Source of the DNA: Flammeovirgaceae bacterium BBD 1991-12
Lineage (GTDB): Bacteria; Bacteroidota; Bacteroidia; Cytophagales; Cyclobacteriaceae
Reading direction: 5' to 3'
Length of the DNA: 64,000 bases
Assembly (NCBI GenBank): GCA_001657315.1
Contig: LYSV01000038.1
Location: 1 to 64,000, forward strand
Shown: positions 4,476 through 34,833 of the stretch, piece after piece
Position numbering within the stretch: the first letter of the stretch is position 1
Layout of the letters: each line of letters opens with the position of its first letter
The notes under the pieces: generated by a model
The model's input: only the letters and a program-made list of their open reading frames with translations
Told to the model about the DNA's origin: nothing
The model's database searches: none
Program-made: the position numbers and the translations under genes

Positions 4476-6101
4476 ATGGATATTGAATTCAATAAGAACG
4501 AAGACCACAACAAACAGCTTGTTTTTCAGCTTAAATCGCGACTGGCAAAGGTGCACCTGGGTGGTGGGGAAAAGAAGATCGAATCCCATCACAAAAAGGG
4601 AAAGCTTACTGCCCGCGAAAGAATAGCCTATCTTACCGATGATGATACGGAGTTTCTTGAGATCGGTGCGCTGGCTGGTGACGGCATGTACAAAGAGGTG
4701 GGGGGGTGCCCTTCCGGTGGGGTGGTTACAGGGATTGGATATGTTCAGGGGCGACAGTGCGTGATCGTTGCCAATGACGCCACGGTAAAGGCAGGTGCAT
4801 GGTTTCCCATTACGGCCAAAAAGAACCTGAGGGCTCAGGAGGTTTCCATGGAGAACAGGCTACCTATTATCTATCTGGTTGACAGTGCCGGAGTTTTTCT
4901 CCCCATGCAGGATGAAATATTTCCGGACAAGGAACATTTCGGTCGGCAGTTCAGGAACAACGCCAGAATGTCGTCTATGGGTATTGTGCAGATAGCGGCG
5001 ATCATGGGTAGTTGTGTAGCAGGTGGCGCCTACCTTCCGATCATGTCAGATGAGGCCATGATCGTAGACAAAACAGGATCGATATTTCTGGCCGGGTCTT
5101 ACCTGGTAAAAGCGGCTATTGGAGAGGATATCGACAATGAAACGTTGGGAGGAGCCACTACACATTGTGAGATATCGGGTGTTACAGATAACCGTTTTGA
5201 GAATGATGAAGCTTGCCTGGACTACATAAAATCCATTTTCAATAAGCTGGGTGAAAATGAAAAGGCCGGTTTTGACAGAATAGAAGCCGTTCCGCCAAAG
5301 CAGGAAACAGCGAAACTGTATGGTATATTACCCGATGACAGGGTAAAGCCGTATGATACTGTTAAGCTGATCAAAAGCCTTGTAGATGGCTCGGAGTTTG
5401 ATGAATACAAAAAGCTCCACGGGAAAACCATTGTCTGCGGTTATGGAAGGATAGAAGGCTGGGCTGTGGGTATTGTGGCTAATCAGCGTAGGGTAGTGAA
5501 AACCAAAAAAGGTGAGATGCAGATGGGCGGTGTGATCTATTCCGACTCGGCCGATAAGGCCGCCAGGTTCATCATGAACTGCAACCAGCGGAAGATCCCT
5601 CTGGTCTTTCTTCAGGATGTGAGTGGTTTTATGGTGGGCAGCAAGGCAGAGCACGGAGGCATAATAAAAGACGGAGCAAAAATGGTGAACGCCATGGCCA
5701 ACAGTACCGTTCCGAAATTCACGTTTATCGTAGGGAACTCCTATGGTGCCGGTAACTATGCCATGTGTGGAAAAGCCTATGATCCACGGCTGATCTATGC
5801 ATGGCCATCTGCACAGATTGCTGTTATGAGTGGTGCTTCAGCCGCTAAGACCCTGCTTCAGATAAAGGTGGCTACGCTAAAAGCCCAGGGTAAGGAATTG
5901 TCTGCTGAAGAAGAGACTGCTTTGCTCAAGGAGATCACTGACAAGTACGATGAAGAGCTGAGTCCCTACTATGCAGCATCGCGGTTGTGGGTAGATGGTA
6001 TAATAGATCCGGTAGAAACGAGGAAGGTGGTATCCATGGGGATAGAGGCTGCCAGTCATGCACCGGTGGAGAAGTTTAATGTAGGGGTAATACAAACGTA
6101 G
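4476..6101 (+). CDS. Acyl-CoA carboxylase, carboxyltransferase (beta) subunit
   Basis: This protein transfers carboxyl from biotin to an acyl-CoA, as in propionyl-CoA or 3-methylcrotonyl-CoA carboxylase. The 541 aa length is normal. Two crotonase-like halves are visible: the N-terminal half with LTARERIAYL, GGVVTGIGYV and GSCVAGGAYLP, and the C-terminal half with GYGRIEGWAVGIVANQ, FLQDVSGFMVG and GNSYGAGNYAMCG. The order and the PYYAASRLWVDGIIDP ending resemble methylcrotonyl-CoA carboxylase beta more than propionyl-CoA carboxylase, but the substrate is not certain. The biotin-carrying alpha subunit is not adjacent. The left repeat of the S23 element begins 4 bases after the stop codon. Confidence 0.88.
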   Translation: MDIEFNKNEDHNKQLVFQLKSRLAKVHLGGGEKKIESHHKKGKLTARERIAYLTDDDTEFLEIGALAGDGMYKEVGGCPSGGVVTGIGYVQGRQCVIVANDATVKAGAWFPITAKKNLRAQEVSMENRLPIIYLVDSAGVFLPMQDEIFPDKEHFGRQFRNNARMSSMGIVQIAAIMGSCVAGGAYLPIMSDEAMIVDKTGSIFLAGSYLVKAAIGEDIDNETLGGATTHCEISGVTDNRFENDEACLDYIKSIFNKLGENEKAGFDRIEAVPPKQETAKLYGILPDDRVKPYDTVKLIKSLVDGSEFDEYKKLHGKTIVCGYGRIEGWAVGIVANQRRVVKTKKGEMQMGGVIYSDSADKAARFIMNCNQRKIPLVFLQDVSGFMVGSKAEHGGIIKDGAKMVNAMANSTVPKFTFIVGNSYGAGNYAMCGKAYDPRLIYAWPSAQIAVMSGASAAKTLLQIKVATLKAQGKELSAEEETALLKEITDKYDEELSPYYAASRLWVDGIIDPVETRKVVSMGIEAASHAPVEKFNVGVIQT

Positions 6102-6208
6102 TTACAATGAGTGAATCGGTGAATTTTGAATGAGTGAATGAGTAAATTGAGAACTGGGGAATATAGACTTACATAATGATTTTACTGATAACAAAAAAAT
6201 GAATAATT

Positions 6209-6571
6209 ATGGCAGATAATGAAAAAGTAAAGTTTATTGAATCAATGCGAAGAAGGACAAAGCATATTGGCTTGTCTGCCATTAGAGTCTTCAGAAAATT
6301 GCCACGTAATGAGGAAACCAGAATTGTAGGAAAGCAGTTTTTAAGATCTGCACTGTCGGTTGGGGCAAACTACAGGGCTGCCTGCAGGGGCCGTTCAAGG
6401 GCGGAATACTTTTCAAAGTTGAGTATAGCCGTTGAGGAGGCTGATGAAGTTCAGTTTTGGATAGAGATCATGGAGGAAAGTGAGATGATCACTTTTGAAA
6501 TCGATCATTTCAAAAATGAAGTAAATGAGATCCTGGCGATATTATCAAAAGCAAGAAAGAACACAAAATAG
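6209..6571 (+). CDS. Four-helix bundle protein (S23 / 23S rRNA intervening-sequence family)
   Basis: This is a 120 aa basic, all-helical protein. It has the family pattern: MRRRTKHIGLSAIRVFRKLP, then QFLRSALSVGANYRAACRGRS, EYFSKLSIAVEEADEVQFWIEIM and FKNEVNEILAILSKA. Known relatives are encoded in intervening sequences of 23S rRNA, and the accessory protein Avd of diversity-generating retroelements has the same fold. Their biochemical role is poorly defined, although nucleic-acid binding is documented for Avd. Here the gene stands alone between protein-coding genes, inside inverted repeats. No reverse transcriptase or template repeat is nearby, so a retroelement role is not supported. Confidence 0.85.
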   Translation: MADNEKVKFIESMRRRTKHIGLSAIRVFRKLPRNEETRIVGKQFLRSALSVGANYRAACRGRSRAEYFSKLSIAVEEADEVQFWIEIMEESEMITFEIDHFKNEVNEILAILSKARKNTK

Positions 6572-6596
6572 CCCATTTCCAATTCACTCATTCATA

Positions 6597-6650
6597 ATTC
6601 ACTCATTCACTCATTTACTCATTTACTCATTTACTCATTTACTCATTCAA
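6597..6650. repeat. Tandem 8-nt repeat (ACTCATTY)
   Basis: About six copies of an 8-base unit, ACTCATTT or ACTCATTC, lie directly downstream of the S23-family gene and form the inner part of the right arm of the element. The left arm has fewer copies, so the arms differ by whole units. Copy number is likely unstable through slippage. Confidence 0.85.
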
Positions 6651-6680
6651 AATTCACCTCATTCACTCATTGAATTCGTT

Positions 6681-7535
6681 ATGGACGTAAAAGAACTAAA
6701 AGCCCTGATATCACTGCTTGATGATGAAGATGCGGAAATTGTATCTCATGTAGAGCAGAAGATAGCTTCGCTGGGTGAGGAGATCATTCCCTACCTTGAA
6801 GAGGAGTGGGAGAGTAATCTGAATCCTTTGGTGCAGGGCCGTATAGAGGATCTGGTGCATACATTGCAATTCGATCTGCTACGGCAGCGGTTGAATACCT
6901 GGTATGAAAGTGAGTCAGATGATCTGCTCAAAGGCATGTGGCTTGTGGCCAGTTATCAGTATCCCGACCTGGAGTACCTCAAGCTGAAGCAGGACCTCGA
7001 GCAGATCTACTACGAAGCATGGGTGGAATTCAAGCCGGACGCTCATCCGTATGACCAGGTGAAGATCCTGAACAGCGTATTGTTTGGGAAGCTGAAATTC
7101 GCTGCCAATACCAAGAATTTTCATTCACCGGCCAACTCCATGATAAATTGTGTATTGGAGTCGCGAAAGGGTAATCCCATAAGCCTGTGTGTGGTGTATA
7201 TGCTGGTGGCGCAGAAGCTTAAACTGCCTGTTTACGGAGTGAACCTGCCCAATCTTTTCATTCTCACCTATAAGGATCCTGCCTACACCCAGTTCTATAT
7301 CAACGCCTTCAACAGGGGGCTGATATTTTCCAGAGATGATATAGAAAACTACATCGGTGAGCTGCGTATTACACCTCAGGAAGCTTTTTTTGAGCCCTGT
7401 GACAACAGAGAGATCATTAAGCGTTCGCTGCGCAATCTGATCCATTCCTTTGAAAAAATAGGTGATCACGCCCGCGAGGAGGAAGTAAAAACCTTGCTGT
7501 ATCACATTACCGGCCAGAGTCTTTCCGGGCTTTAA
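6681..7535 (+). CDS. SirB1-family transglutaminase-like protein
   Basis: The 284 aa protein carries the SirB1/transglutaminase-like core: FHSPANSMINCVLESRKGNP, then ISLCVVYMLVAQKLKLPVYG and QFYINAFNRGLIFSRDDI. A helical N-terminal region (LKALISLLDDEDAEIVSHVE) looks like a short HEAT-type repeat. The family's function is not firmly established. The ORF track runs back to 6525 through the tandem repeats and the S23 gene; ATG 6681 is the credible start because the region upstream is repeat sequence. No cysteine is visible in the core segment at the position expected for a classical transglutaminase, so enzymatic activity is doubtful. Confidence 0.8.
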   Translation: MDVKELKALISLLDDEDAEIVSHVEQKIASLGEEIIPYLEEEWESNLNPLVQGRIEDLVHTLQFDLLRQRLNTWYESESDDLLKGMWLVASYQYPDLEYLKLKQDLEQIYYEAWVEFKPDAHPYDQVKILNSVLFGKLKFAANTKNFHSPANSMINCVLESRKGNPISLCVVYMLVAQKLKLPVYGVNLPNLFILTYKDPAYTQFYINAFNRGLIFSRDDIENYIGELRITPQEAFFEPCDNREIIKRSLRNLIHSFEKIGDHAREEEVKTLLYHITGQSLSGL

Positions 7536-34758: not shown

Positions 34759-34833
34759 AGGAACAGAAAGTCAGAAGCCAGAAGTAGGATCTCACATCCA
34801 GCTTCTGGCTTCTGACTTCTGACTTCTGTTCCT
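34759..34833. repeat. Inverted repeat built from 7-nt words (GTCAGAA)
   Basis: Both arms start AGGAACAGAA and end GTCAGAAGCCAGAAG when read outside-in. The right arm has one extra GTCAGAA unit and lacks one A. The arms flank a 17-base loop. The structure resembles the S23-element repeats but without a gene inside. Confidence 0.75.

Follow-up and report, generated by a model that had tools for sequence, protein, structure and literature searches.

Inverted arrays of lineage-specific short words flank S23-family genes in operon junctions and probably form cassettes akin to rRNA intervening sequences

The window (the whole stretch of 64,000 nt that was analyzed, at the start of contig LYSV01000038.1 of Flammeovirgaceae bacterium BBD 1991-12) contains a gene encoding a 120-residue four-helix-bundle protein of the S23 (23S_rRNA_IVP) family (6209–6571, + strand; PF05635, TIGR02436, AlphaFold). 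Its upstream neighbor encodes a carboxyl transferase subunit (4476–6101, + strand; PF01039, 1.9e-150) and its downstream neighbor a Transglut_core2 or SirB1-like protein (6681–7535, + strand; PF13369, 1.3e-44). Both neighbors lie outside a compact cassette composed of the S23 gene, an upstream arm of 8-nt words (AATGAGTG) that is G-rich and C-poor when read inward (6105–6147, + strand), and a downstream arm array of 11.4 copies of ATTCACTC (6581–6672, + strand), in which 6629–6672 is the best match to the upstream arm. The cassette starts 3 nt past the stop codon of the carboxyl transferase gene and ends 8 nt ahead of the ATG codon of the SirB1-like gene. The latter gene is present in 15 of the 16 genomes of the genus, and its adjacency to the carboxyl transferase gene is conserved in relatives.

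The arms gave the best match in a gapped alignment of the 350-nt flanks of the S23 gene. The inverted match of 6105–6147 with 6629–6672 comprised 41 identities, 2 mismatches, and one single-base indel (score of 70). Among 300 intervals of gene size placed at random in the window, the median score was 18 and the 99th percentile 29; the one control interval that reached 70 was apparently the window S23 locus itself. Tandem Repeats Finder assigned a period of 8 to both arms, with 5.4 copies of AATGAGTG at 6106–6147 and 11.4 copies of ATTCACTC at 6582–6671. Given these copy numbers, the length of the downstream array is roughly double that of the upstream arm, and the two can pair in several registers. 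The RNA fold of 6085–6700 gave a z value of –9.45 relative to shuffled sequence, with the arms paired. Thus, an earlier note on this DNA, which had described near-perfect inverted arms of 8-nt words around an S23-family four-helix gene, had seen the unit fit exactly between a stop and the next start, and had proposed to fold the transcript, was borne out on each of these points. No Rfam family matched the arms, and Rfam detected no rRNA at the cassette, which is flanked by protein genes. No transposase was found in the cassette, S23 being the sole gene inside, and a simple pattern, which is a weak test, gave no match to a Bacteroidota-type promoter within it.

S23 proteins have been found in 23S rRNA insertions since 1993, and we know of no function assigned to them since that date. 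The window protein matched PF05635 (8.9e-16, 58.5 bits for a curated cut-off of 33.8) and TIGR02436 (1.1e-23, 83.5 bits for a curated cut-off of 24). Its AlphaFold model, computed as a monomer, was a confident four-helix bundle (pLDDT of 96). The nearest solved structures were S23 proteins (2rld, TM of 0.82; 2gsc, TM of 0.79), followed by the Avd subunits of the ribonucleoproteins of diversity-generating retroelements (DGRs), which have the same four-helix fold (8ub7, 8ub8, and 4dwl; TM of ~0.65). In contrast to Avd, the window S23 gene adjoins the carboxyl transferase and SirB1-like genes and no reverse transcriptase gene. The motif RxxxSxxxNxxE, derived from GxxRxxxSxxxNxxE (PMC3936711), was partly represented, by R46, S50, and N54, the position of the final E being occupied by A57. 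The pN/pS ratio was 0.20 between the window protein and its ortholog in genome G013, within a range of 0.08–0.20 for S23 genes. Judged by these ratios, the S23 protein is under purifying selection.

Eleven S23 genes were found in the host genome, and between 0 and 9 in each of the other genomes of the genus. Several of the other S23 genes of the host genome and genus were located between inverted arms of other words (e.g. TTAGAAG, CTGGTTA, and GTGTTAAA). A 464-kb sample of the host genome that avoided the other S23 genes contained the window arms as the sole pair of periodic arms spanning a gene. S23 loci were then gathered irrespective of their flanks. An inverted repeat spanning the gene with a score of at least 30 was detected for 55.6% of 198 S23 genes versus 1.9% of 583 control intervals (Mann-Whitney p = 5e-70), the controls being shifted along the same loci. 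Among the 135 S23 loci with a score of at least 26, the period of the upstream arm was 7 in 95, 8 in 12, and 9 in 2. The set was enlarged to 311 S23 genes from Bacteroidota, Cyanobacteria, Spirochaetota, candidate-phyla bacteria, and others. The search for arms at other S23 genes, also proposed in the earlier note, was positive for 194 of the 311 genes, leaving ~38% without arms at the threshold used; both arms had a period of 7 in 151 loci, 8 in 33, and 9 in 6. The 8-nt word of the window thus differs from the 7-nt word of most S23 loci. Arms were present at 25/30 S23 genes in cyanobacteria, 11/27 in spirochaetes, and all nine of the plasmid-borne loci fetched (cyanobacteria, Chloroflexota, and Bernardetia). 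Armed loci also came from Acidobacteria, Desulfosarcina, Oryzomonas, Peregrinibacteria, Uhrbacteria, and a planctomycete metagenome-assembled genome (MAG), some of the MAG taxon labels being possibly wrong.

The commonest layout was one spanning pair of arms. A general plan with two hairpins per cassette was rejected, as an upstream or downstream hairpin of its own occurred in only 7–10% of the loci. Three loci (L216, L227, and L356) displayed a four-arm layout, with a complete word hairpin on either side of the S23 gene and no single spanning pair. A match to a group II intron was located ~2 kb from an S23 gene in a contig of a planctomycete MAG (L287, 3637–3736). Among 50,697 phage records, there was one weak S23 match.

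Across S23 loci, the arms read inward were G-rich and C-poor. The G-richness of the upstream arm was considered as a signal of gene direction and dropped, because an inverted repeat reads alike on both strands and has equal polarity on each. Phase alignment of the words of 98 heptamer loci gave the consensus W-N-T-N-A-G-W, with G in 96% and the preceding A in 74% of the loci; its information content was 3.03 bits versus at most 2.10 bits in controls permuting word columns within loci. The distance between words increased with the distance between proteins (Mantel rho of 0.31, permuted maximum of 0.19). Words, proteins, and sites were compared for 142 heptamer loci. At one site, the word was shared in 0/77 pairs with a protein identity below 40% and in 13/13 pairs with an identity of at least 80%. 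At unrelated sites, it was shared in 13/17 pairs with an identity of at least 70%. As locus pairs are not independent, these counts give the pattern and not exact probabilities. Different S23 lineages with different words occupied the same site within the genus of the host genome (e.g. L012 versus L020 and L024; L072 versus L039, L068, and L071; L038 versus L046). Conversely, the proteins of L230 and L237 were 88% identical and had a word family in common, in non-homologous flanks. Periods 7 and 8 clustered on the S23 tree (12 changes versus 23.5 for shuffled labels, 0/500 as low). Relatives of the window protein occupied sites elsewhere and likewise had arms; in its nearest relatives, the arms consisted of TGA-core octamers, as in the window. 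This comparison of loci showed that the word tracks the protein lineage rather than the site. This coupling needs no more than joint inheritance of gene and arms as a unit. If the S23 protein recognized the word, the likeness of the two arms and the AG core common across phyla would be explained as well. The coupling suggests that the target of recognition is the word, in the form of DNA or RNA, more than the stem named in the earlier note.

Comparison of relatives, as proposed in the earlier note, revealed empty or decayed versions of the carboxylase/SirB1 site. Intact S23 genes occupied this site in genomes G000 and G013, with 72% identity and related but different words. In G002, the S23 gene was deleted and the arms remained visible. 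G012, the closest relative based on the SirB1-like protein, kept what by eye appeared to be a short remnant. The spacer was ~11 nt in G004, G008, and G009, and the remaining genomes were devoid of an S23 gene at this position. In another species of the genus (G011, L049), the carboxylase/SirB1-like junction contained an unrelated segment of ~1.1 kb. At the site of L039, G015 harbored an internal deletion keeping the start of the S23 gene and G007 had lost the start. Some seemingly empty sites represent older copies that have undergone internal deletion. No target-site duplication and no fresh insertion were found at three sites, the relatives showing deletions or remnants or being too diverged, and none of the sites compared revealed a precise insertion that distinguished close strains. 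The number of S23 copies varied from 0 to 11 within the genus. These site comparisons indicate long-resident S23 cassettes that decay and are replaced by others. Empty, decayed, and re-occupied sites all exist. A mobile element, as suggested in the earlier note, may be moving at present, but the sites record ancient presence and loss as much as gain.

The S23 gene was on the same strand as the upstream gene in 141/149 loci (95%) and as the downstream gene in 143/149, according to a simple ORF caller. It was co-directional with both neighbors in 136/149 loci versus 235/292 background triplets (Fisher p = 0.004). The median distances were 3 nt from the upstream stop to the arms and 8 nt from the arms to the next start, as in the window. 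This co-direction and tight spacing indicate that host operon and cassette are read together. Such a placement fits an RNA-level element or an element that depends on a host promoter. No excess of G-U was observed between arms (160 G-U versus 168 A-C mismatches); hence, there was no sign of selection on the pairing of the sense RNA. The proposal of a small mobile or RNA-level element was accordingly upheld only for its element-like nature, gene and arms having one history across sites, the wobble test for RNA pairing being negative.

In cyanobacterial and Chloroflexota plasmids, S23 cassettes were located within defense operons (L356, L357, L359, and L363), with the gene orders drmD-S23-mmeI, DUF1156-S23-Swt1-HEPN (twice), and csx2-S23-cas1. 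Across Bacteroidota, an apparent fatty-acid degradation operon harbored S23 cassettes of differing lineages at one site, immediately ahead of a thiolase-like start, in 28 loci (L012, L020, L024, and L219–L292), an apparent hot spot.

Arrays of the same type also occurred without a gene. Bulk DNA remote from S23 genes was sampled in 20-kb stretches. It contained 15 arrays with a period of 7 or 8 in 1000 kb of S23-rich genomes and one in 640 kb of S23-free genomes, a roughly tenfold difference (Poisson p = 7e-4). Other periods were nearly absent, save for a block of period 9 in one S23-free sample and for period 14, which echoes period 7. Several of the solo arrays were themselves hairpins. The window contained a gene-less hairpin of heptamer words (CAGAAGC / GCTTCTG; 34759–34833, no strand assigned; period 7; DNA fold z of –7.9), which is probably a solo relative of the arms of S23 cassettes. 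Elsewhere in the host genome (G000), single arms with the word of the window (ATTCACTC / GAATGAGT) were present at C168:10540–10636 (L002) and C63:12323–12363 (L008), and no S23 gene was found beside either. Many contigs of G003, the genome of L039, carried a total of more than a dozen dispersed CTGGTTA-like arrays without S23, and their word was that of one of the two S23 cassettes of this genome. Paired palindromic repeats of the GGGGCAATTCATGAATTGCCCC type, unlike the word arms and perhaps REP-like, were observed in the host genome (L110, 8046–8676 and 3216–3945).

Leptospira, in addition to Coxiella, carries an S23-encoding intervening sequence (IVS) in 23S rRNA. As in these IVSs, the window cassette contains one S23 ORF within complementary terminal arms, a likeness that had been pointed out in the earlier note and that extends to the word arrays. 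In the Coxiella IVS, the S23 ORF lies inside a 28-bp terminal stem and is preceded by tandem heptamers (GACAGAT), and RNase III cleaves within the stem (PMC4990558). The window cassette differs by its location in a protein operon instead of rRNA and by arms consisting of longer word arrays. This location rules out an IVS proper; by analogy, the cassette may work like one, with excision by RNase III. An Rfam scan detected no S23 gene inside 23S rRNA in 49 other sources, some of them overlapping. In a spirochaete (L457, 656–1158), a decayed S23 cassette with AAGTNNN arms was located in the 23S-5S rRNA spacer; it appears to be a bridging case between operon cassettes and rRNA IVSs. Like MITE and REP-type elements, S23 cassettes are short, intergenic, bounded by inverted arms, and accompanied by gene-less derivatives, but they have lineage-specific word arrays as arms and a gene of their own that does not encode a transposase. 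No earlier description of such a cassette was found in open PMC papers.

We consider it probable that the locus is an IVS-like S23 cassette, a selfish or semi-domesticated compact element made of an S23 gene and inverted word arms and residing in operon junctions instead of 23S rRNA. The comparisons across sites lend good support to its element-like nature, with gene and arms forming one unit of common history. The cassette would be expressed by read-through from the host operon. The S23 protein, as an Avd-like nucleic-acid binder, would recognize the word in both arms, either as DNA ends or as arms of the transcript, and this recognition would keep the arms matched. The long stem of the transcript could allow RNase III to excise the cassette from between the host cistrons, as in rRNA IVSs. 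A quite possible alternative is an element acting at the DNA level, in which S23 binds the word arrays as terminal inverted repeats, in double- or single-stranded form, much as transposases do with subterminal repeats or hairpins. Cutting would fall to an enzyme of the host or of other origin, and the orientation bias would merely reflect the need of the gene for a host promoter. The symmetric mismatches of the arms, expected in the absence of RNA pairing, the gene-less hairpins and single arms with cassette words in the same genomes, and the dependence of word and period on the protein all agree with such an element. However, the 95% co-orientation with the upstream gene exceeds the expectation for a freely oriented DNA transposon, the cassette encodes neither a nuclease nor a transposase, and target-site duplications were not found at the sites compared.

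The other two explanations dispense with an element. One of them invokes regulatory hairpins, intercistronic stems that pass down vertically and either autoregulate or insulate S23 and the adjacent genes. They would explain the strong purifying selection on S23, the long persistence at the carboxylase/SirB1 site (intact in G000 and G013, decayed in G002 and G012), and the fatty-acid operon site common to 28 loci. Such stems are, however, improbable: the hypothesis was already weakened by the unrelated S23 lineages and words occupying one site within one genus, and it is further at odds with close S23 proteins at unrelated sites (e.g. L230 and L237) and with the variation in copy number within a genus. 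It is highly improbable that the arms are a product of chance or a mutational by-product, in which tandem repeats expanded by slippage became complementary through template switching, S23 being irrelevant. Slippage does generate tandem repeats, and the arms are of low complexity and variable length, but spanning arms were rare in control intervals, only periods 7 and 8 recurred in the bulk DNA of S23-rich genomes, arrays away from S23 were depleted in S23-free genomes, and the AG core was common to several phyla.

The preferred reading, that of an IVS-like cassette, bears on two sets of published observations. Intergenic 7-nt arrays resembling those described here have been reported, with their cause unexplained, in Xanthomonas (GGGAATC), Nostoc (GGGGA(T/C)T), and Beggiatoaceae (TAACTGA), and those of Xanthomonas often form convergent inverted pairs, like cassette arms (PMC4692102, PMC4679880). 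S23 genes go unmentioned in these two papers. In cas loci, 23S_rRNA_IVP genes have been listed as a CRISPR-Cas-associated function (PMC3936711); there, as in csx2-S23-cas1 and drmD-S23-mmeI here, S23 lies between co-directional defense genes. In contrast to this view, the arms around S23 genes of cas and other defense loci suggest that they are inserted cassettes. S23 genes in such operons may therefore be passengers rather than parts.

In a broader and somewhat unlikely extension, lineage-specific words of 7–8 nt would be read by S23 proteins, which would also write and disseminate them by means of their cassettes. This process would explain the excess of intergenic heptanucleotide repeats and make rRNA IVSs a special case. 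Catalogues of bacterial heptamer repeats have offered no cause for them, and S23 has had no known function. The two puzzles are tied together because arms occur at most S23 loci of several phyla, because the word is linked to the protein lineage, and because arrays are rare in genomes without S23. Through this link between S23 and the word, both become testable, and S23 cassettes may explain the excess of 7-letter repeats in bacterial genomes.
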